NCBI RefSeq assembly: GCF_900187405.1
Contig: NZ_LT896716.1
Location: forward strand, 620,001 to 684,000
Origin: Geobacter sp. DSM 9736
GTDB lineage: Bacteria; Desulfobacterota; Desulfuromonadia; Geobacterales; Geobacteraceae
Direction of reading: 5' to 3'
DNA: 64,000 nucleotides
In this document: positions 40,645-51,675 of the stretch, one piece after another
Layout of the letters: every line of letters starts with the position of its first letter
Numbering within the stretch: the first letter of the stretch is position 1
Position numbers and translations under genes: made by a program
The notes under the pieces: generated by a model
What the model was told of the DNA's origin: nothing
Seen by the model: only the letters and a program-made list of their open reading frames with translations
The model's database searches: none

Positions 40645-43059
40645 GTGGCACTGAAAAAATCTGAGCTGTATTCTTCCCTGTGGGCCAGTTGCGATGAGTT
40701 GCGCGGCGGCATGGATGCCAGCCAATATAAAGACTATGTCCTTGTCCTTCTCTTTATCAAGTACGTGAGTGACAAGTATGCAGGTGTACCTTACGCTCCG
40801 ATTAAGATCCCCGACGGTGCGAGTTTCAAGGATATGGTCGCCCTTAAGGGGACCAGTGACATCGGGGACCAGATCAACAAAAAGATCATTGCTCCGCTGG
40901 CCAACGCAAACAAGCTGTCCGACATGCCCGATTTTAACGACGGCACCAAGCTTGGCAGCGGCAAGGAGATGGTTGACCGCCTCACCAACCTGATTGCTAT
41001 CTTTGAGAGTCCCGCTCTGGACTTCTCGAAGAACCGTGCGGACGGCGATGACATCCTTGGCGATGCCTATGAGTACCTCATGCGGCATTTCGCCACTGAG
41101 AGCGGGAAGAGCAAGGGCCAGTTCTACACGCCTGCCGAGGTCAGCCGGATCATGGCGCAGATCCTGGGGATACGGGAGGCGAAGACTACAAGCGCCACCA
41201 CCGTGTACGACCCCACCTGCGGCTCTGGTTCCCTCCTTCTGAAAGTTGCGGACGAGGCCCGGTCTGCCGTCACTCTTTACGGGCAGGAAAAGGATGCCAC
41301 CACCGCCGGTCTTGCCCGCATGAACATGATCCTGCACAACAACCCGACTGCCCTCATCGTTCAGGGGAACACCCTTGCCGACCCTAGGTTCAACGACGGT
41401 GGTGCACTCAAGACCTTCGACTACGTCGTCGCCAATCCCCCTTTTTCCGACAAGCGTTGGAGCAACGGCATCGACCCGCTCTACGACCCTTACGAGCGCT
41501 TCAAGCACTTGGGCGTGCCTCCTGGAAAGCAGGGGGATTACGCGTATCTCCTCCACATCGTCCGCTCCCTGAAGAGCGCCGGCAAAGGGGCCTGCATTCT
41601 GCCGCACGGGGTGCTCTTTCGGGGGAACTCCGAGGCGGAAATACGCCGCAACCTGATCCGCAAGGGTTACATCAAGGGGATCATCGGCCTTCCTGCAAAC
41701 CTCTTCTACGGCACCGGCATCCCGGCCTGCATCATCGTCATCGACAAGGAAGACGCCCATAGCCGCAAGGGGATCTTCATGATCGATGCCAGCAGCGGCT
41801 ACATGAAGGACGGTCCCAAGAACCGCCTGCGGGACCGGGATATACACAAGATCGTGGACGTGTTCAATAGACGCTCCGAGATACCGAAGTACGCCAGGAT
41901 GGTGAGTTTCGACGAGATCGAGAAGAACGACTTCAACCTCAACCTGCCGCGCTACATCGACAGCCAGCAGGCCGAGGATCTCCAGGATATCGAGGGGCAT
42001 CTGAAGGGGGGCATTCCGAAGGCCGATGTTGATGCGCTAGAAGCATACTGGGAGGTCTGCCCCCAACTCCGACAGACATTGTTCAGCAACAACCGTCCAG
42101 GGTACTTTGATCTGGCGGTGGAAAAAGCGGCCATCAAGCCGGCCATCTACGGTCATCCGGAGTTTGCAGCATTCATCGACCACATGAATGCCCTCTTTGC
42201 CGAATGGCGGGACCGCAGCGCCATGTCTTTACGGGAGCTGCAGGCGGGCTGCCATCCGAAGGAAGTCATCGCAGGCCTTTCCGAAGAGCTCCTTGCCCAT
42301 TACGACCGAGCGCCACTCATCGATCCGTACGCTGTCTACCAGCATCTGATGGACTACTGGGCGGAGACGATGCAGGACGATTGCTATCTTATTGCCGCTG
42401 ACGGCTGGAAGGCGGAGACCTACCGGGTGGTCGAGACGAAAAAGGGGAAGGACGGCAAGCCGGGCAAGCAGGTGGATAAAGGATGGGCCTGCGACCTCGT
42501 GCCAAAGGAACTCATCGTCGCCCGGTATTTCCGGAAAGAGCAGGAGGAAATCGACCGGTTGGCGGCAGAGGTTGAGACGATTTCGGCCACGATGACGGAA
42601 CTGGAAGAGGAGCATGGTGGTGAAGAGGGAGCATTTTCGGAACTGGAGAAGGTGAACAAGGCCAATGTCGCGGCCCGGCTGAAAGAGGTCAAGGGGGACA
42701 AAGAGGCGAAGGACGAGGCGGCTGCGCTGGGAGCGTGGCTGAAGCTGGCGAACGAAGAGGCGAACCTGAAGAAGCGGGTAAAGGAAGCCGAGGCGGCGCT
42801 GGATGCAAAGGCATGTGCGAAATATCCCAAACTCACCGAAGATGAGGTAAAGGCACTGGTAGTTGATGATAAGTGGTATGCAGCCCTTGATGCCGCAATA
42901 CATGGTGAGATGGACCGGGTAAGCCAGGCGCTTGCGGGGCGGGTGAAGGAACTGGCTGAGCGGTATGAAATGCCGGTGCCACGAATGGTTGAGCGCATCA
43001 CAGACCTTGAGGCGAAGGTCAATGCACACCTTGAGAGGATGGGGTTTGCATGGAATTGA
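40645..43059 (+). CDS. hsdM: Type I restriction-modification methyltransferase subunit
   Basis: The 804-residue protein has the HsdM N-terminal domain (SSLWASCDELRGGMDASQYKDYVLVLLFIKYVSD). The N6-adenine methylase core follows: YDPTCGSGSLLLKV for SAM and DYVVANPPFSDKRW as catalytic NPPF. It is about 300 residues longer than classic HsdM. The extra C-terminal part contains a long charged coiled coil (about residues 630-720) likely to contact HsdS. It modifies host DNA at the site set by HsdS. The start is GTG at 40645 with a TTGGAG site. It overlaps hsdS by 10 bases. Confidence 0.92.
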   Translation: MALKKSELYSSLWASCDELRGGMDASQYKDYVLVLLFIKYVSDKYAGVPYAPIKIPDGASFKDMVALKGTSDIGDQINKKIIAPLANANKLSDMPDFNDGTKLGSGKEMVDRLTNLIAIFESPALDFSKNRADGDDILGDAYEYLMRHFATESGKSKGQFYTPAEVSRIMAQILGIREAKTTSATTVYDPTCGSGSLLLKVADEARSAVTLYGQEKDATTAGLARMNMILHNNPTALIVQGNTLADPRFNDGGALKTFDYVVANPPFSDKRWSNGIDPLYDPYERFKHLGVPPGKQGDYAYLLHIVRSLKSAGKGACILPHGVLFRGNSEAEIRRNLIRKGYIKGIIGLPANLFYGTGIPACIIVIDKEDAHSRKGIFMIDASSGYMKDGPKNRLRDRDIHKIVDVFNRRSEIPKYARMVSFDEIEKNDFNLNLPRYIDSQQAEDLQDIEGHLKGGIPKADVDALEAYWEVCPQLRQTLFSNNRPGYFDLAVEKAAIKPAIYGHPEFAAFIDHMNALFAEWRDRSAMSLRELQAGCHPKEVIAGLSEELLAHYDRAPLIDPYAVYQHLMDYWAETMQDDCYLIAADGWKAETYRVVETKKGKDGKPGKQVDKGWACDLVPKELIVARYFRKEQEEIDRLAAEVETISATMTELEEEHGGEEGAFSELEKVNKANVAARLKEVKGDKEAKDEAAALGAWLKLANEEANLKKRVKEAEAALDAKACAKYPKLTEDEVKALVVDDKWYAALDAAIHGEMDRVSQALAGRVKELAERYEMPVPRMVERITDLEAKVNAHLERMGFAWN

Positions 43060-44222
43060 AGCCGGGCTACAAGCAGACAGAGATTGGGGTGATTCCGAAG
43101 GACTGGGATGTTTTGCCTTTACAAGATGCCTGTCGAGTTCCTATCACCTATGGCATCGTGCAATGTGGACCACACATTCCGAATGGTGTGCCATATATAC
43201 GTGTGTCGGATATGGATCGAAGCCAACTTGATGTCTCTGGGATGATGCGAACCTCGTTTGCCATTGCAACACAATTTGGGCGATCCACGGTTGAGGAAAA
43301 TGATATTGTCTACGCGCTTCGGGGTGCGCTAGGTGAAGTCCGGCTTATAAGTAGAGAGGTGGCTGGCGCAAACTTAACGCAAGGTACTGCTAGAATTGCT
43401 CCGAAAAATGATTTAGCGCATCAATACTTACTTTGGGCTATGCGCAGCTCTAACGCAGTTCAACAATCGGAGCTCACTTCTAAAGGAACTACTTTTCGCG
43501 AGATCACCCTAGCCGATTTAAGACAAATAACAATCCCCCTTCCCCCCACCAAAGCCGAACAAGAAGCCATCGCCGAGGCTTTGACCGATGCGGATGCCCT
43601 CATCGAATCCCTGGAGCAACTCGTCGTCAAAAAGCGTCAGATCAAGCAAGGAGCGATGCAGGAGTTGCTGACCGGCAAGAAGCGCCTGCCGGGGTTCAGC
43701 GAGTCCTGGCAAATACGACCTCTAGGTGAAATAGCACCCCTACAAAGAGGGTTTGACTTGCCTAATTCAGAGCTTCAGCAGGGACCCTACCCGGTTGTTT
43801 ACTCAAATGGGGTGCTGAATAGGCACACCATGTTTAAGGCAAAAGGCCCTGGGGTTGTCACTGGGCGCTCCGGCACAATTGGGGCAGTGACCTTTGTTCC
43901 AGAAGATTTCTGGCCACACAACACTGCTCTGTGGGTAACATCCTTCAAAGGGAATGACCCGAAATTTATATTCTACCTCTACACGCGTATTGGCCTCGAA
44001 AGGTTTGCTACAGGTTCAGGTGTTCCCACACTAAATCGAAATGATGTTCATGCTTTCAAAGTGAAAGTTCCATCTACCAAAGAAGAGCAAACCGCCATTG
44101 CCACCATCCTCTCCGACATGGACACCGAAATCGACGCGCTGGAAGAAAAGCTCACCAAGGCCCGCCAAATCAAACAGGGGATGATGCAGGAACTCCTCAC
44201 CGGGAGGATTCGATTGGTATGA
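43050..44222 (+). CDS. hsdS: Type I restriction-modification specificity subunit
   Basis: The 390-residue HsdS has two target-recognition domains, each followed by a conserved helix: PLPPTKAEQEAIAEALTDADALIESLEQLVVKKRQIKQGAMQELLTGKKRLPG in the middle and a second KARQIKQGMMQELLTGRIRL at the end. The repeats of QIKQG.MQELLTG make the pseudo-symmetric arms that bind HsdM. It determines the bipartite DNA target. The TRD parts are more AT-rich than neighbouring genes, as is common for exchangeable TRDs. The end overlaps the next gene by four bases (ATGA). Confidence 0.92.
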   Translation: MELKPGYKQTEIGVIPKDWDVLPLQDACRVPITYGIVQCGPHIPNGVPYIRVSDMDRSQLDVSGMMRTSFAIATQFGRSTVEENDIVYALRGALGEVRLISREVAGANLTQGTARIAPKNDLAHQYLLWAMRSSNAVQQSELTSKGTTFREITLADLRQITIPLPPTKAEQEAIAEALTDADALIESLEQLVVKKRQIKQGAMQELLTGKKRLPGFSESWQIRPLGEIAPLQRGFDLPNSELQQGPYPVVYSNGVLNRHTMFKAKGPGVVTGRSGTIGAVTFVPEDFWPHNTALWVTSFKGNDPKFIFYLYTRIGLERFATGSGVPTLNRNDVHAFKVKVPSTKEEQTAIATILSDMDTEIDALEEKLTKARQIKQGMMQELLTGRIRLV

Positions 44223-45697
44223 GAAAGAAACGCCTCTTCATCAGCAGCGTCCAGAAGGAGTTCGAGGCCGAGCGTTCCGCCCTGCGGGACTATCTGCACG
44301 CGGACCCGCTGCTGCGGCGTTTCTTCGACGTGTTCCTGTTCGAGGACCTTCCCGCCTCCGACCGCCGCACCGATGCCGTTTATCTGGAGGAAGTGGCTGC
44401 GTGCGATCTCTATGTGGGTCTGTTCGGTGATGAATACGGTTATGAGGACGGGGCAGGGATCTCGCCGACGGAGCACGAGTTCAACCGGGCTACGGAGCTG
44501 GGCAAACCACGTCTGATCTACGTGAAGGGGGCCGACGACAAGGCCAAGCACCCGAAGATGCAGGCGCTCATCCGGCGGGCCTCTCCACAGTTGATCCGCC
44601 GCCGGTTTACCGATGCGGACGAACTTTGTTCGGCGTTGTATGCCAGTCTGATTGAACACCTGGAGCGTACGGGAGCCATCCAATCCCTTCCCTTCGACGA
44701 GCAGCCTTGCCGCGACGCAACACTCGACGACCTCGATGCCGAAGCAGTCCGACGATTTATTCGGGAGGCGCACCACAAGCGCCAGTTTTCGCTGTCCGAG
44801 AATACGCCGGTTGTTGATGTTCTAACCCATCTCAACCTGATTCGGGACGGACAACCTACCCAGGCAGCTATTCTTTTATTCGGCAAAGACCCACAGCGGT
44901 TTCTGTCTTGCTCGGAAGTCCGCTGCATGCATTTTCACGGCGCAGTGATTCAGCGCCCTGCGCCCTATTACCGGATTTTCAAAGGAAATCTGTTTGAACA
45001 AGTCGATCAAGCGGTAGATTTCGTGCTTTCCAAGATCGACCTGAGTGTCGGCACTCGTGCATTGAGCACGCAAGCGCCGACCCGTTACGAGCTTCCTCCG
45101 GATGTAATCCGCGAAGCTATCGTAAACGCCGTTGCCCATCGGGATTATTCGCACCAGGGCGCCATTCAGGTGTCTGTCTTTGCCGATCGACTGGAGGTGT
45201 GGAACCCGGGAGAACTCCTTGCTCCGTTGACTCTCGAACAACTGCGCAAACCGCATCGCTCGTTGACCCGCAATGCACGGGTATGCGAAGCGCTCTACCT
45301 TGCAGGCTACATCGAAAAGTATGGCACTGGGACCTTGATGATGATTCAGGAAAGCATCGAGTATTCTCTTCCGGAACCCGATTTCGACCAACCAGCCGGC
45401 GAGTTCGTGGCAACCCTCTGGCGCGACTGGCTCACAGCACATGTCCTTGCCGGCCTCGATCTGAATGACCGTCAGCATGCGGTCATCTCTCATCTGAAGG
45501 TCAGCCGGCAGATCACTAATGCCGAGTACCGGCGACTAACCGGTGCCACTGACAGGACGGCCGCCCGTGATCTGGAAGATCTGGTGAACAAGGGCCTCCT
45601 GAGTAAAACAGCCAAAACCGGGCGCGGCACTGCTTACCGCCTGGTGCAGAAACCAGCCATAAACCCGACAAACCCGACGTCCGGGAACCCGACATAA
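44219..45697 (+). CDS. DUF4062 / RecG-like ATP-binding / winged-helix fusion within the RM operon
   Basis: The 492-residue protein starts with a DUF4062 domain (MRKKRLFISSVQKEFEAERSALRDYL, ACDLYVGLFGDEYG, SPTEHEFNRATELGKPRLIYVKG). The body of the RecG-like transcriptional regulators follows: QPTQAAILLFGKDPQRF and the GHKL-type segment LPPDVIREAIVNAVAHRDYSHQGAIQVSVFADRLEVWNPGELL. A winged helix (NAEYRRLTGATDRTAARDLEDLVNKGLL) closes the protein. In typical relatives an AlbA_2/Schlafen domain occupies the front; here DUF4062 replaces it. The ATG overlaps the hsdS stop. It may sense or regulate restriction, or be a separate effector. Confidence 0.82.
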   Translation: MRKKRLFISSVQKEFEAERSALRDYLHADPLLRRFFDVFLFEDLPASDRRTDAVYLEEVAACDLYVGLFGDEYGYEDGAGISPTEHEFNRATELGKPRLIYVKGADDKAKHPKMQALIRRASPQLIRRRFTDADELCSALYASLIEHLERTGAIQSLPFDEQPCRDATLDDLDAEAVRRFIREAHHKRQFSLSENTPVVDVLTHLNLIRDGQPTQAAILLFGKDPQRFLSCSEVRCMHFHGAVIQRPAPYYRIFKGNLFEQVDQAVDFVLSKIDLSVGTRALSTQAPTRYELPPDVIREAIVNAVAHRDYSHQGAIQVSVFADRLEVWNPGELLAPLTLEQLRKPHRSLTRNARVCEALYLAGYIEKYGTGTLMMIQESIEYSLPEPDFDQPAGEFVATLWRDWLTAHVLAGLDLNDRQHAVISHLKVSRQITNAEYRRLTGATDRTAARDLEDLVNKGLLSKTAKTGRGTAYRLVQKPAINPTNPTSGNPT

Positions 45698-45746
45698 ACC
45701 GGACAAAGCAGACAATGCCACCCTGGACAATCTGAAGGGGGAAGTC

Positions 45747-48700
45747 ATGGACACTATCGGCCAGAGCGAGCGCACCACGCAGAATCGAGTGATCGCCCTT
45801 TTCAGGGACGAGCTCAACTACCGCTACTTGGGCGACCGGACCGACTACGACAACAGCAACATCGAAGAACCCCTCCTCACTGCCTACCTTGCCGAAAACG
45901 GCTATTCGCCTGCTCAGGTCAACAGCGCCATCTACAAACTCAGAACCGAAGCCGACAATCACAACCGCACCCTTTACGGGAACAATCAGGCCGTCTACAG
46001 CCTGCTGCGTTATGGCGTGCCGGTAAAGGTCGAGGCTGGGAAGGTTGCGGAGACTGTCCAGCTCATCAATTGGAAGAACCCTGAGAAAAACCAGTTCGCA
46101 ATCGCCGAGGAGGTGACCCTGCGCGGGAACCACGAGCGGCGGCCCGATATCGTCCTCTATGTTAACGGCATTGCCGTCGGCGTACTGGAACTGAAGAACA
46201 GCCGTGTCTCCATAGGTGACGGCATCAGACAGAACATCTCTAACCAGCGCCCGGAGTTCAACGAGTGGTTTTTCAGCACGGTCCAGTTCATCTTCGCCGG
46301 CAACGACAGCGAGGGGCTGCAGTACGGCACCATCAGGACGGAGGAGAAGTTTTTCCTCAAGTGGAAGGAGGACGAAGAGGACAACAGCCGCTTCAAGCTC
46401 GATAAATACCTCCTCAAGATATGCCGAAAGGATCGCCTGATCGAAATCATGCACGACTTCGTGCTCTTCGACGGGGGAGTTAAAAAGCTGCCGCGCGTCC
46501 ATCAGTATTTCGGCATCAAAGCGGCTCAGGAGCATGTCAGAGAACGCAAGGGGGGCATCATATGGCATACCCAGGGCTCCGGCAAAAGCATCGTCATGGT
46601 GCTCCTGGCAAAGTGGATCCTGGAGAACAATTCCCATGCCCGAGTCGCCATAATTACGGACCGAGACGAGTTGGACGAGCAGATCGAGAGGGTCTTCACG
46701 CAAGGAGGAGAGACCATCTACCGCACCAGCAGCGGGCGGGATTTGATGAGCCAGCTCGGGCAGGCAGCGCCCCGCCTGCTCTGTTCCCTGGTGCACAAGT
46801 TCGGCAGGAACGGCGTGGACGACTTCGATGCCTTCATCAAAGAGCTTGAGGCGCAGCCGACCCGGACGGTGGGTGAGTTGTTCGTCTTCGTAGACGAGTG
46901 CCATCGGACGCAAGGCGGTAAGCTCCACCGCGTCATGAAGGCGATGATGCCGAACGCCGTCTTCATCGGCTTTACCGGTACGCCTCTGCTCAAGAAGGAT
47001 AAGCAGACCACCCTCGAAGTCTTCGGCAATTACATTCATACGTATAAGTTCAGCGAGGCAGTAGAGGATGAGGTAGTACTCGACCTGATCTATGAGGCAC
47101 GGGACATCGACCAACGTCTCGGCTCAGTGGAGAAGATCGATGCGTGGTTCGAGGCAAAGACGAAGGGGCTGAACGACTGGCAGAAGGACGAGTTGAAGAA
47201 GCAATGGGGGACGATGCAGAAGGTGTTGAGCTCGAAGTCCCGCATGGACCGGGTCGTCAGCGACATCCTCTTCGACTTCAGCGTCAAACCGCGACTCAGC
47301 AGCGAACGGGGCAATGCCATTTTGGTTTCACAGCGAATCTACGAGGCCTGCAAGTACTTCACGCTGTTACAGAAGACTCCACTTAGGGGCAAATGCGCAC
47401 TCGTGACCTCCTATAATCCGCAGACGAGAGATATCACGCTGGAGGATACCGGGGAGAACAGCGAGACCGACAAGGAGTTCATCTACAATACTTATACTGA
47501 CCTGTTGAAGGACGTGGTTCCGGATACGGGGAAAACAAAGACGGAAACATACGAGGATAAGGCGAAGCTTCTCTTCATAAAGGAGCCGGCCAACATGAAA
47601 CTCCTTGTGGTCGTGGACAAGCTTCTAACGGGGTTTGACGCCCCTTCCTGTACCTACCTCTACATCGACAAGTCAATGCAGGATCACGGCCTGTTCCAGG
47701 CCATCTGCCGCACGAACCGGCTCGACGGTGAGGACAAGGATTTCGGGTACGTCGTCGATTATAAAGACCTGTTCAAGAAATTGGTCAATGACAAGGGGAC
47801 CGGCGCTCTTCAAGTCTATACCTCGGAACTCGATCATAGTGCCGGTGGGGTTGATCCCGATGTTCTCCTGCAGGACCGCCTCAAGAAAGGGAAGGAGCGG
47901 CTCGACAACGCGCTTGAAGCACTTGCTCTCCTGTGCGAGCCGGTGGACCCACCCAAGGGGGAACTGGAGCATATCCATTACTTCTGCGGAAACACAGAGA
48001 TTGAGACAGACCTCGAAGAACGGGAGCCTCAGCGGGCCGCTCTCTACATGGGTAGTGCCGCCCTCGTACGTGCCTACGCGAATATTGCCGATGAGCTTGA
48101 GACTGCCGGTTATGATGAGGGTAAAATAAAGAAGATCAAGCGAGAGCTTGAGCATTACCTGAACCTCCGGGAGATCATTAGGAAGGCGAGCGGCGAAACA
48201 CTCGATCTGAAGGCGTACGAAGCCGACATGCGGCACCTTATCGACACCTACATCGAGGCAGCTGAACCGAGGAAGATTTCCCCCTTTGACGACATGCCAT
48301 TGCTTGAGTTGATCGTGAAGAGTGGCATTGCTGACGCCATTGCGACGCAGCTCAGCTCATTCAAAGGTGACAAAAACGCAATTGCCGAAACCATTGAAAA
48401 CAACGTCCGCAGGAAAATCATCAAGGAGCATTTCAGCGACCCGGCGTACTTCGATAAAATGTCCGCGCTGTTGGACGAGATCATTGGTCTCCGCAAGGCA
48501 AAGGCTATTGAGTACGAGGAATATCTGAAACGGATTGCCGAACTGGCTAAACAGGTCGAGGCAGGGCAGGGCGGGAATGTGCCTGCAGTTCTTGATACTC
48601 CAGGTCGACGTGCCCTTTACAATAATCTGTTGAAAGCAAGCCCTTCCGGAGTCGCAGACCACTCTCCCGAATGGGAAGGTAAGGATGCCGTGCTTGAATT

Positions 48701-48863
48701 GACGATTAAAATAGACAAAACCGTGAAGGAAGTGAGGCCGGATGGCTGGCGGGGAGTGCAGGCCCGAGAACAGGTGATAAAGGCTGCACTTTATGGCGTA
48801 TTGCAGGATGCAGCCGAGGTAGAGCGGATCTTTACGATAGTAGAGAAGCATAGGGAATACTGA
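45747..48863 (+). CDS. hsdR: Type I restriction endonuclease subunit
   Basis: The 1038-residue HsdR has the PD-(D/E)xK nuclease near residues 130-150 (RRPDIVLYVNGIAVGVLELKNS). The motor domains show Walker A in WHTQGSGKSIVMV, FVFVDECHRTQGG (DEAH-like) and FTGTPLL. A helical C-terminal region binds the methylase. It translocates and cuts unmodified foreign DNA. The ATG at 45747 follows AAGGGGGAAG. The 48-base gap before it is the largest in the operon. The last base of its stop is the first base of the metallopeptidase gene. Confidence 0.94.
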   Translation: MDTIGQSERTTQNRVIALFRDELNYRYLGDRTDYDNSNIEEPLLTAYLAENGYSPAQVNSAIYKLRTEADNHNRTLYGNNQAVYSLLRYGVPVKVEAGKVAETVQLINWKNPEKNQFAIAEEVTLRGNHERRPDIVLYVNGIAVGVLELKNSRVSIGDGIRQNISNQRPEFNEWFFSTVQFIFAGNDSEGLQYGTIRTEEKFFLKWKEDEEDNSRFKLDKYLLKICRKDRLIEIMHDFVLFDGGVKKLPRVHQYFGIKAAQEHVRERKGGIIWHTQGSGKSIVMVLLAKWILENNSHARVAIITDRDELDEQIERVFTQGGETIYRTSSGRDLMSQLGQAAPRLLCSLVHKFGRNGVDDFDAFIKELEAQPTRTVGELFVFVDECHRTQGGKLHRVMKAMMPNAVFIGFTGTPLLKKDKQTTLEVFGNYIHTYKFSEAVEDEVVLDLIYEARDIDQRLGSVEKIDAWFEAKTKGLNDWQKDELKKQWGTMQKVLSSKSRMDRVVSDILFDFSVKPRLSSERGNAILVSQRIYEACKYFTLLQKTPLRGKCALVTSYNPQTRDITLEDTGENSETDKEFIYNTYTDLLKDVVPDTGKTKTETYEDKAKLLFIKEPANMKLLVVVDKLLTGFDAPSCTYLYIDKSMQDHGLFQAICRTNRLDGEDKDFGYVVDYKDLFKKLVNDKGTGALQVYTSELDHSAGGVDPDVLLQDRLKKGKERLDNALEALALLCEPVDPPKGELEHIHYFCGNTEIETDLEEREPQRAALYMGSAALVRAYANIADELETAGYDEGKIKKIKRELEHYLNLREIIRKASGETLDLKAYEADMRHLIDTYIEAAEPRKISPFDDMPLLELIVKSGIADAIATQLSSFKGDKNAIAETIENNVRRKIIKEHFSDPAYFDKMSALLDEIIGLRKAKAIEYEEYLKRIAELAKQVEAGQGGNVPAVLDTPGRRALYNNLLKASPSGVADHSPEWEGKDAVLELTIKIDKTVKEVRPDGWRGVQAREQVIKAALYGVLQDAAEVERIFTIVEKHREY

Positions 48864-49579
48864 TGGTCGCAAGGTTAGATCTTGGTGACATAACCGTGGA
48901 TGTGGTCAAGAAAGACATCAAGAACATCCACCTGAGTGTGTACCCTCCTGTAGGGAAGGTCCGTATATCGGCCCCGCTTAGAATGGATCTCGATACCATC
49001 CGCGTCTTTGCTATTAGCAAGCTCGGCTGGATAAAAAAGCAGCAGCAGAAGCTCCGGGAGCAGGAGCGGGAATCACCGCGTGAACTTCTCGACCGTGAAA
49101 GTCATTATGCATGGGGTAAAAGATATCTACTGAAGGTGGTAGAGAAAGACCTGCCCCCGTTTGTGAAGCTGGTCCACAACAAGATGTTTCTCCATGTCAG
49201 ACCAGGAACCATAGAGGAGCGGAAACAAGAGATCCTTGAAGAGTGGTATCGTGAAAGCCTGAAGATTGCCATCCCACCCATTATCGAAAAATGGCAAAAG
49301 CGGTTAGGGGTGCAGGTAGAAAGGTTCCATATTCAGCGGATGAAGACGAAGTGGGGGAGTTGCAACGCCGGTGCAGGCGCTATCCGCATTAATACCGAAT
49401 TGGCGAAGAAGCCACAGGAATGTCTCGAGTATATTGTTGTCCACGAGATGATGCATCTTCTGGAGCCTAGCCATCACGCCCGGTTCATCTCTCTGATGGA
49501 TAAGCATTTGCCAAAATGGCAGTTCCTTCGGGAGGAACTGAATAGATTGCCAGTGCGGCATGAGGAGTGGGAATACTGA
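48863..49579 (+). CDS. YgjP/SprT-like zinc metallopeptidase in the RM operon
   Basis: The 238-residue protein of the YgjP (DUF45, M48-related) family has the zinc motif VVHEMMHLLEPSHHARF (HExxH plus a third histidine) near residue 190, and MKTKWGSCNAGAGAIRINTELAK before it. The N-terminal beta-rich part (KKDIKNIHLSVYPPVGKVRISAP) is normal for the family. It frequently follows type I hsdR genes, but its role there is unknown; proteolytic control of HsdR, as ClpXP does in E. coli, is only a guess. Its ATG overlaps the hsdR stop. Confidence 0.85.
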   Translation: MVARLDLGDITVDVVKKDIKNIHLSVYPPVGKVRISAPLRMDLDTIRVFAISKLGWIKKQQQKLREQERESPRELLDRESHYAWGKRYLLKVVEKDLPPFVKLVHNKMFLHVRPGTIEERKQEILEEWYRESLKIAIPPIIEKWQKRLGVQVERFHIQRMKTKWGSCNAGAGAIRINTELAKKPQECLEYIVVHEMMHLLEPSHHARFISLMDKHLPKWQFLREELNRLPVRHEEWEY

Positions 49580-49617: not shown

Positions 49618-49657
49618 GCCGATATTCCTCAGTTGGTAGAGCAGCGGCTGTTAACCA
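49618..49657 (+). other. tRNA-like fragment (D-arm and Asn-type anticodon loop)
   Basis: CCTCAGTTGGTAGAGC is a near-perfect tRNA D arm. It is followed at nearly the right distance by CTGTTAA, an anticodon loop of tRNA-Asn (GTT). The anticodon stem is one base short and there is no T arm afterwards, so this is not a functional tRNA. It could be an integration scar at a tRNA gene. It lies in frame just before the fic start. Confidence 0.6.
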
Positions 49658-49659
49658 TT

Positions 49660-50304
49660 ATGACTGATCGCTACGATACCTCACATTTTCTCGAAGACCA
49701 GGACGAGCCAGGCTCAAATGGCACAGTCTTGCGTAATATGCTTGGCATTATAGATCCTGTAGAAATGGGCATTGCCGAGACTGCTGCCCTTTGGCGGGCT
49801 CAGGAAACCCTGATATCTGAAATAGCTGCCGATCAGTCTTTTACTGCTCAGGATATCTGCGATATGCACCGTCAATGGCTGGAATCAATTTATCCATGGG
49901 CGGGAATGTATCGGCAAGTCAACATTGGCAAAGGTGGCTTTCAATTTGCCATGGCGCACACCATCCCAATCTTGATGGCAGAGCTGGAACGGAACCAGTT
50001 GCGAAGATACACGCCTTGTCTTTTCGAATCCTCTGATGACGTGGCGCATGCACTGGCAGAGGTGCATGTGGAGCTGATGCTTATTCATCCTTTCCGGGAG
50101 GGAAACGGACGCTTGGGGCGGCTGCTTGCGACTTTGATGGCATTACAGGCTGGGCTGCCGTTGCTTGATTTCAGTGAGTTGGACGGGGCGCGGCGAGAAG
50201 AATATTTTTCAGCAGTGCGGGCTGGATTGGATATGGATTATCAGCCGATGAAACGGCTGTTCAAGGATGTTATCGAGAGGTCTTTGAAGTCTTCGCAGGA
50301 GTGA
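49660..50304 (+). CDS. fic: Fic-domain AMPylase-like protein
   Basis: From the ATG at 49660 the protein has 214 residues with a complete Fic motif HPFREGNGRLGRLL (about residues 143-156) and the flap region (KGGFQFAMAHTIPI) that holds the target. Fic enzymes add AMP or other nucleotide parts to a protein target such as gyrase or an elongation factor. No N-terminal inhibitory helix is present, so inhibition must come from another protein, as in class I Fic. The frame runs upstream to 49567 through a tRNA-like fragment, so the true start is uncertain and no good ribosome site is seen. A candidate inhibitor gene is convergent. Confidence 0.85.
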   Translation: MTDRYDTSHFLEDQDEPGSNGTVLRNMLGIIDPVEMGIAETAALWRAQETLISEIAADQSFTAQDICDMHRQWLESIYPWAGMYRQVNIGKGGFQFAMAHTIPILMAELERNQLRRYTPCLFESSDDVAHALAEVHVELMLIHPFREGNGRLGRLLATLMALQAGLPLLDFSELDGARREEYFSAVRAGLDMDYQPMKRLFKDVIERSLKSSQE

Positions 50305-50461
50305 GTTCTTTAGATTGTGAAACGAAGCGGCCGCTTGCGGGGTCCCGTTTTACGCGCACTCCCTCAATGGCGGAAGATGACTCAATGTTACGGGCGAGAG
50401 CTTTAGTCCGTTTGGCTGCGTCTTTCAGGTAGGGATTTGTTTCGAGCAGTGACTTTTTCAT
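50270..50461 (-). CDS. Small protein with Fic-inhibitory motif, possible antitoxin
   Basis: The 63-residue basic protein begins MKKSLLETNPYLKDAAKRTKALARN and contains ESSSAIEGV. This fits the (S/T)xxxE(G/N) inhibitory motif that blocks the ATP site of Fic proteins. The tail is Ser/Lys/Thr-rich. The gene runs opposite to fic and overlaps its last 35 bases, an unusual layout because class I antitoxins normally precede fic on the same strand. A TATAGT sequence lies close upstream of the ATG and no ribosome site is clear, so it could be leaderless. Function as an antitoxin is inference. Confidence 0.55.
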   Translation of the reverse strand: MKKSLLETNPYLKDAAKRTKALARNIESSSAIEGVRVKRDPASGRFVSQSKELTPAKTSKTSR

Positions 50462-50483
50462 GGCGTCGACTATACCACGTAAC

Positions 50484-50560
50484 CACTGTCGACACGAGGA
50501 TTTTCAGTCCTCGGTTCCTACGGCCGAGGGATTTTAAGTCCCTTGCGGCGCCACTGCACG
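50484..50560 (-). other. Two tRNA-like anticodon arms (Leu-UAA and Phe-GAA types)
   Basis: On the minus strand GGGACTTAAAATCCC (50541-50528) followed by TCGGCCGTAGG matches the anticodon arm and start of the variable arm of tRNA-Leu(UAA). GAGGACTGAAAATCCTC (50512-50496) followed by GTGTCGAC matches the anticodon arm and variable region of tRNA-Phe(GAA). Both stems are five or more perfect pairs around seven-base loops. Acceptor and T arms are absent or decayed. Confidence 0.6.
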
Positions 50561-50594: not shown

Positions 50595-50819
50595 ATGACT
50601 GAGTCCCTTAAACCCGATCCCACCCACCTCGTTGAACTTGCCACGACTCGCATGCCTTTCGGAAAATATCAGGGGCGCCGGCTCATCGACCTTCCGGAGC
50701 CGTACGTCGTGTGGTTTGCGGGGCAGGGATTCCCGGAAGGCAAGCTGGGTGACTTGCTCCGTGCTGTCTATGAGATCAAGGTGAACGGCCTTGAGTATCT
50801 CTTTGACCCGTTTAGGTGA
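50595..50819 (+). CDS. DUF3820-family small protein
   Basis: This 74-residue protein carries MPFGKYQGRRLIDLPEPYVVWFAGQGFPEGKLGDLL, the full DUF3820 signature. The family has been called a putative quorum-sensing-regulated virulence factor, but its molecular role is unknown, and DUF3820 regions also occur next to exonuclease domains. Length is normal. The ribosome site is weak. It follows the tRNA-like remnants. Confidence 0.8.
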   Translation: MTESLKPDPTHLVELATTRMPFGKYQGRRLIDLPEPYVVWFAGQGFPEGKLGDLLRAVYEIKVNGLEYLFDPFR

Positions 50820-50886: not shown

Positions 50887-51675
50887 ATGAAAAACATTAT
50901 GGGCAAAAGCTTCCTCCCCCAGCATGGCGGTTTTCGGAAGCTGCGCAGCTTTCAGGCGGCTCAGCTTGCTTACGATGGTACGGTCATCTTCTGCGACCGC
51001 TTCATCGACAAGCGCTCCCGCACTAATGATCAGATGGTGCAGGCGGCCCGCAGCGGCGTGCAGAACATCGCCGAAGGGAGCCTTGCTTCCGCAACCTCCA
51101 AAGAGACCGAGCTGAAACTGACCAATGTGGCCCGCGCCAGCCTGGGAGAGCTGCTCCTCGACTATGAAGATTTCCTGCGCCAGCGCGGTTTGCGCCAGTG
51201 GACGAAGGAATCGCCGGAGGCGCTTGAAGTGAGGAGGCTTTATTTGTCTGACCTGTCCGACATCTATGCCTTTCGCACAGCTTCTGCCGAGGTTGTCGCC
51301 AACACTCTCATCTGTCTGGTCAACCAGGCGAGCAGCCTGTTGCACAGGCAGATTCGTCAGCTGGAACAGGAGTTTCTTGCCCAAGGCGGCTTGCGCGAGC
51401 GGATGACCAGGGCCAGACTGGAAGTCAGGGGTTGTTGTCCGACAAGTCCGACCTGTCCGACAAGTCTGACGAGTCCGACAGGTCCGACAAAAGCAAACCG
51501 CCTTCCTGCCCAAAGTGCGGTAAGCCGATGCGGCAGCGTACCGCCCGAAGCGGGCCGCATGCCGGTGAGTCTTTCTGGGGCTGCACCGGTTATCCCGATT
51601 GCAAAGGGATCAGAGCTGTGGAGGAATAACCTGACTCCTCCTCACATAATTGACGCCCCCGCCCGATTCTGCTAA
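50887..51675 (+). CDS. Four-helix-bundle suffix-domain protein with disrupted zinc-finger end
   Basis: Residues 1-165 or so are a four-helix-bundle protein of the S23/IVP-like type (FRKLRSFQAAQLAYDGTVIFCDRFIDKRSRTNDQMVQAARSGVQNIAEGS). The usual C-terminal topoisomerase-type C4 zinc finger is not in this frame. Instead the frame runs through a Pro/Thr repeat and ends with a low-quality tail. The finger is intact in the frame one base earlier (51432-51629). One inserted base just before 51432 would restore a normal fusion. It is either a frame-disrupted gene or one using frameshifting. GGGGAG precedes the ATG. Confidence 0.7.
   Translation: MKNIMGKSFLPQHGGFRKLRSFQAAQLAYDGTVIFCDRFIDKRSRTNDQMVQAARSGVQNIAEGSLASATSKETELKLTNVARASLGELLLDYEDFLRQRGLRQWTKESPEALEVRRLYLSDLSDIYAFRTASAEVVANTLICLVNQASSLLHRQIRQLEQEFLAQGGLRERMTRARLEVRGCCPTSPTCPTSLTSPTGPTKANRLPAQSAVSRCGSVPPEAGRMPVSLSGAAPVIPIAKGSELWRNNLTPPHIIDAPARFC
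51432..51629 (+). pseudogene. Out-of-frame topoisomerase-type C4 zinc finger
   Basis: Read in the frame ending at 51629, the sequence gives a Ser/Asp/Lys repeat linker and then CPKCGKPMRQRTARSGPHAGESFWGC and YPDCKGIRAV, a complete C4 finger. It is the normal C-terminal domain of the preceding four-helix protein, displaced by a one-base shift. A TTG at 51432 could in theory start it separately. Confidence 0.65.
51438..51491 (+). repeat. Six copies of a 9-base repeat within the linker
   Basis: TCCGACAAG and close variants occur six times in tandem (51438-51491). The 9-base unit keeps frame, so copy-number change would alter linker length but not cause the frame break just upstream. Confidence 0.85.

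Follow-up and report, generated by a model that had tools for sequence, protein, structure and literature searches.

Introduction

Fic proteins are classed by where their inhibitory helix is encoded, and the classes were reportedly introduced by Engel et al. in 2012. Class I relatives modify DNA gyrase or topoisomerase IV. In the published class I modules, the antitoxin gene lies directly upstream of fic in an operon (PMC5033356, PMC3667792), and in the class I complexes the partner of the inhibitory glutamate is the second arginine in the FIC motif (PMC5033356).

We consider here a fic gene whose predicted antitoxin gene lies downstream and on the opposite strand. The two genes belong to the window, a stretch of 64,000 nucleotides from the genome of Geobacter sp. 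DSM 9736 (contig NZ_LT896716.1), in which positions are counted from the first letter. We conclude that the pair is most probably a two-gene, class I-type Fic toxin-antitoxin module in a new convergent layout. In the literature searched, no description of a convergent or opposite-strand Fic antitoxin was found; an earlier notice in the class tables of Engel et al. 2012 is possible.

The gene pair and its motifs

The first gene, fic (49660..50304, + strand), encodes a predicted Fic AMP-transferase toxin of 214 residues (Pfam Fic, 3.4e-19), and the second (50270..50461, - strand) a predicted Fic-inhibitory antitoxin of 63 residues. The two frames run tail to tail and share 35 bp (50270..50304, both strands), and the convergent arrangement is exactly as the original prediction had placed it. 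The Fic protein carries the catalytically competent HxFx(D/E)GN(G/K)RxxR motif in the form HPFREGNGRLGR (residues 143-154; 50086..50121, + strand), with the catalytic histidine and two arginines. H143, R151 and R154 are invariant, the two arginines being kept in 67 of the 67 Fics compared.

Does the Fic chain carry an inhibitory helix of its own? The motif (S/T)xxxE(G/N) is absent from the window Fic, as had been claimed: the canonical form was not found at the N-terminus or the C-terminus, the places that mark class II and class III. The nearest string, S8HFLED13 at the N-terminus, was considered as a class II-like helix and rejected, being non-canonical and unconserved and aligning with the 'DPY' segment of class I proteins. 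At that position (S/T)xxxE(G/N) occurs in 5 of 26 close relatives and in 6 of 67 diverse Fics.

The AF2 model of the window Fic (pLDDT 96) has its best matches in the PDB among class I complexes: VbhT/VbhA (3shg, Z 22.1) and EcFicT/EcFicA (5jff, Z 21.9), followed by Bep1/BiaA (5eu0, Z 21.4) and Fic-1/AntF (8wt0, Z 20.3). The protein also matches the PADLOC model of PDC-S04 (PDLC04839, 3.2e-75). An identity as Mobile mystery protein B (TIGR02613) was rejected, since the score of 44 falls below the cut-off, 124.

The small protein reads ...NIESSSAIEGVRV..., also given as ...NIESSSAIEGV..., and contains the predicted inhibitory motif S29-S-A-I-E33-G34 (50360..50377, - strand), in which S29, E33 and G34 fit (S/T)xxxE(G/N), so that the motif noticed earlier in this frame stands. 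Its AF2 model (pLDDT 81) has a helix from residue 15 to residue 33 that ends in the motif. The protein has no match in Pfam, NCBIfam, PADLOC or PHROG, and profile and fold searches of the PDB gave chance matches only, the protein being too short for either search to inform.

Is the small frame a gene at all? In the region outside the overlap, pS exceeds pN in 136 of 136 pairs of small genes, and dN/dS, where computable, lies between 0.06 and 0.21. These substitutions show purifying selection on the small gene, and so the frame on the opposite strand is translated into protein. Since it is conserved, evolves in the manner of a protein and stands convergent beside every fic of the family in the class, as described below, we take the small ORF to be a genuine gene and not a chance frame.

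The invariant residues of the small protein are the two that the motif names. Across 65 convergent small proteins, with identity down to 11%, S29 and E33 are the sole invariant columns, and position 34 is glycine in 30 and threonine in 31. An E-T variant, SxxAIET(G), that departs from the published SxxxE(G/N) occurs in roughly half of all convergent small proteins, in several separate groups (small ORFs of loci L065, L066, L071, L072, L087-L121 and L143-L155).

Conservation, spread and origin of the layout

In the class to which the window belongs, 277 genomes were searched for the small gene and for fic, and the coordinates were then compared. The small gene is present in 52 of the 277 genomes. 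The fic gene is present in 38, at 41 places, and at 41 of these 41 a convergent small gene adjoins it; the pair is thus kept in other genomes, which was the check proposed for it at the outset. In seven of the loci examined (L004, L005, L007, L011, L018, L021, L032) the small gene is intact beside a truncated or broken fic, and in three others (L017, L023, L030) it occurs with no fic detected within the examined stretch. The small gene outlasting fic is the asymmetry expected of a toxin-antitoxin pair, in which the toxin is lost before the antitoxin.

With the Fic alignment as query, a wider scan that covered the genomes of bacteria and archaea gave 80 loci. A convergent small ORF is found at about 78 of them; the exceptions, L141 and L142, have a motif-bearing ORF upstream. 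Of the loci in L094-L155, many were assigned to the family on their position, their motif and weak profile scores, and not on strong similarity to the window protein. The titles name Delta- and Gammaproteobacteria, Burkholderiales, Nitrospira, Nitrospinota, Omnitrophota, Neomarinimicrobiota, Verrucomicrobia, Cyanobacteria and Bacteroidota, although many loci are metagenome bins and individual taxon labels may err. Thirteen prophage-derived loci (L143-L155) have the same convergent arrangement, and plasmids of Citrobacter and Marinomonas carry the pair, though a tblastn search of plasmids with the window small protein gave no match; the members on plasmids are divergent. Among the complete genomes of E. 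coli, 5,426 in all, at least 24 contain most of the Citrobacter pair at the DNA level. In one E. coli genome the pair lies behind an integrase, within an element that also has AlpA, YfjI and inovirus Gp2-like genes. A related E. coli pair, in NZ_CP100996.1, is WP_174330013.1 / WP_102016203.1. In the records examined, the small gene is annotated as 'hypothetical protein'. Distances among the Fics are correlated with those among the small proteins (Mantel r 0.78; permutations reach at most 0.15), a result that linkage alone could also yield.

How does this layout relate to that of the more distant Fics? Most of L156-L195 have an upstream ORF on the same strand with SxxxEG (e.g., SMRLEG, SLRLEG, SQRIEG), and three (L163, L166, L180) have the motif in the C-terminus of Fic itself. 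The upstream, same-strand position that had been stated for the known class I antitoxins therefore holds both in the published modules (PMC5033356, PMC3667792) and in most of these relatives. When layout is mapped onto a tree built from 135 Fics, the label "convergent" requires one change against the upstream or own-chain labels when unclassified rows are set aside and two when they are counted, and the starred branches force at most one change of layout, in a quick tree whose support is by SH-aLRT only. The convergent layout fits a single origin.

Predicted promoters, neighbours and tRNA-like fragments

The small gene has a predicted promoter of the leaderless kind: an extended -10 box, TATAGT (50469..50474, - strand), lies 7 bp before its ATG in the order TGGTATAGT-CGACGCC-ATG. 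A TA[TA]AnT box 11-14 bp before the ATG recurs at 47 of the 65 loci of the window's group (28 at -12 and 13 at -13), whereas shuffles give a mean of 1.4 and a maximum of 6, and a Shine-Dalgarno-like sequence precedes the small gene at 6 of the 65. In the other group, composed mostly of gamma- and betaproteobacteria and Bacteroidota, the box is found in 2 of 24 and a Shine-Dalgarno sequence in 12 of 24. Given the frequent box and the few Shine-Dalgarno-like sequences in the window's group, the antitoxin gene is probably transcribed from a promoter of its own into a leaderless mRNA.

The fic gene often starts a few bases past the stop of an upstream gene on the same strand. Among 20 such neighbours, which were not sampled at random, are genes for restriction and modification, for reverse transcriptases, for helicases and for integrases, as well as metabolic genes. 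At two loci (L067:423-2489 and L082:414-2483) the gene upstream of fic is an RVT_1 reverse-transcriptase gene of about 690 codons that meets it in a start/stop overlap. In the window, fic comes after a type I restriction-modification cluster identified by Pfam (40645..49579, + strand), in the order HsdM, HsdS, DUF4062/ATPase, HsdR and a YgjP-like peptidase, with which it may be co-transcribed. The DUF4062 / RecG-C-terminal-like ATPase gene (44219-45694) sits between hsdS and hsdR. Elsewhere in the window, a QSregVF_b gene (50595-50819) is followed directly downstream by the gene (50887-51675) for a four-helix-bundle protein with a TIGR04258 suffix domain.

Fragments that resemble tRNA genes flank the pair. 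Just before the fic ATG is the 5' half of a tRNA-Asn(GTT)-like sequence, ending in the anticodon loop (49618..49657, + strand). Upstream of the small gene, two exact copies of anticodon arms of host tRNAs stand in tandem, one of 23 bp from tRNA-Phe(GAA) (50490..50512, - strand) and one of 25 bp from tRNA-Leu(TAA) (50523..50547, - strand); a similar, degraded tandem lies upstream of the small gene in L031/L052. Similar tRNA-Asn(GTT) halves precede fic in L035, L052 and L054, at about 25 bp or less from the ATG, and in L204 (6706-6800) a tRNA-Asn half and a tRNA-Thr-like half also stand before the next gene. The arrangement looks as if gene cassettes had been joined at tRNA anticodon loops. As a general trait of the pair the tRNA halves were discarded, because within the same order just 4 fic loci have one before fic. 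An Rfam search of the region found nothing.

Proposed mechanism and alternatives

The original prediction took the small protein for an inhibitor of the Fic protein, and we consider this very probable, because the serine and glutamate are invariant, the Fic arginines are kept, every fic of the family in the class is paired, and the best structural matches are class I complexes. The Fic protein would be a probable AMP-transferase toxin that acts on a bacterial target. The 63-residue protein would supply the inhibitory helix in trans, ending in S29xxxE33G34, and E33 would pair with R154, the second arginine of the FIC motif, so that ATP is kept from productive binding. Unlike the products of the ficA-ficT operons, toxin and inhibitor would be expressed independently, given the antitoxin's own, probably leaderless, promoter and the frequent start of fic right behind an upstream gene on the same strand.

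A variant that deserves some weight, though we hold it to be a minority prospect, is that the small protein makes Fic a reversible switch, the complex removing AMP from the target as a deAMPylase. Fic-1/AntF belongs to class I, carries the same motif and is one of the best structural matches; it has been reported to act as a deAMPylase, and in class II Fics the motif glutamate is required for deAMPylation (PMC13327609). Such a switch would be compatible with the toxin-antitoxin explanation, but the products of the solitary small genes, those with no fic detected (L017, L023, L030), would then be left without an enzyme.

The toxin-antitoxin module might further use its convergent layout as a regulatory device, in which strong read-through from the neighbouring operon raises the toxin and silences the antitoxin by transcriptional collision or antisense RNA; we regard this as unlikely. 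That fic is, within such a device, a passenger ending a defence or integrase operon and transcribed towards a constitutive, leaderless antitoxin gene seems equally speculative, and it is no more probable that the triggers are infection or activation of the element, with loss of the element stopping the supply of antitoxin. If the device were real, it would be a type of toxin-antitoxin system triggered by transcription of its neighbour.

It is also improbable, and somewhat more so, that the pair of Geobacter sp. DSM 9736 is a remnant, decayed or inactive. The fic start has no Shine-Dalgarno sequence and abuts the tRNA-like fragment, and many related copies of fic are broken; but neither frame in the window is broken, the FIC motif has its canonical form, and the serine and glutamate of the inhibitory motif are in place. 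It is very unlikely that the small protein is a different kind of partner (an AMPylation substrate, an adaptor or a DNA-binding autoregulator) and not an inhibitor. Its N-terminus has an LxxTNPYL segment, conserved in one group, and its C-terminal tail is basic, yet the invariant residues are exactly the inhibitory serine and glutamate, and no DNA-binding fold was matched by the small protein.

The last alternative concerns RNA. It had been suggested that the antisense overlap adds control at the RNA level to inhibition by the protein. The overlap is present in 98 of 111 pairs, with lengths of 4-68 bp and exactly 4 bp in 26, and absent in the other 13. Both overlapping tails are the least conserved parts of their proteins: the majority identity is 0.46 over the last residues of Fic against 0.72 elsewhere in Fic, and 0.38 over the last residues of the small protein against 0.70 for its residues 1-40. 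It looks as though the orientation is conserved while the overlap itself is loosely constrained, and with an overlap so variable, or missing, and tails so poorly kept, we find the suggested RNA-level control unsupported. That the locus acts mainly by RNA, the fic and small-gene mRNAs forming a 3' antisense pair of a type I-like kind with the ORF secondary, is the least credible reading of all: most pairs do overlap, and a terminator-like hairpin for the fic-sense RNA at 50508-50530, past the small gene, would let the fic transcript run antisense across all of it, but such hairpins are no more frequent than in shuffles, the strong purifying selection on the small gene is that of a protein, and the overlap is as inconstant as just described.

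Comparison with known systems

We turn finally to the systems that the pair resembles. The type I toxin-antitoxin pair txpA/RatA, which has a 3'-overlapping antisense RNA, is alike in its convergent, tail-to-tail arrangement; its antitoxin is an RNA, whereas the gene on the opposite strand here codes for a conserved protein and evolves accordingly, with the low dN/dS given above. Mobile mystery protein B (TIGR02613) is likewise a Fic-domain protein in mobile contexts, and its partner is an upstream HTH protein.

The window Fic matches PDC-S04 and stands beside restriction-modification genes, but PADLOC lists PDC-S04 as a single-gene candidate for phage defence, without a convergent partner. 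The layout gives the Fics of this clade a predicted partner and opens them to tests in laboratory E. coli, and a PDC-S04 Fic of the convergent kind, cloned or deleted alone, may amount to half a system. For one PDC-S04 system, no evidence of defence was seen in the native host (PMC12409345).

The class II and class III Fics, such as SoFic and NmFic, share the fold and the inhibitory principle; their helix is part of the Fic chain, while the window Fic is without the canonical motif. The closest likeness is to the class I modules (VbhT/VbhA, EcFicT/EcFicA, that is Fic/YhfG, Fic-1/AntF and Bep/BiaA), which also combine a Fic of about 200 residues with HPFxxGNGRxxR, the best structural matches to our model, and a separate small protein with the inhibitory helix. 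In the window this adjacent small protein has (S/T)xxxE(G/N), with about half of the wider family showing E-T. Beyond the motif, no relation of the small protein to VbhA or YhfG is detectable in sequence or fold (no Pfam or NCBIfam match, and no match by profile or fold in the PDB), although shortness can mask kinship. The class I gene order is not that of the window or of its clade: here the antitoxin gene is downstream and convergent, with its own, often leaderless, predicted promoter. A large clade of Fics, spread over many phyla, prophages, plasmids and E. coli, thus has its predicted inhibitor encoded opposite to the toxin, on the other strand, and would offer a natural case of a toxin and an antitoxin with separate, opposing transcription.
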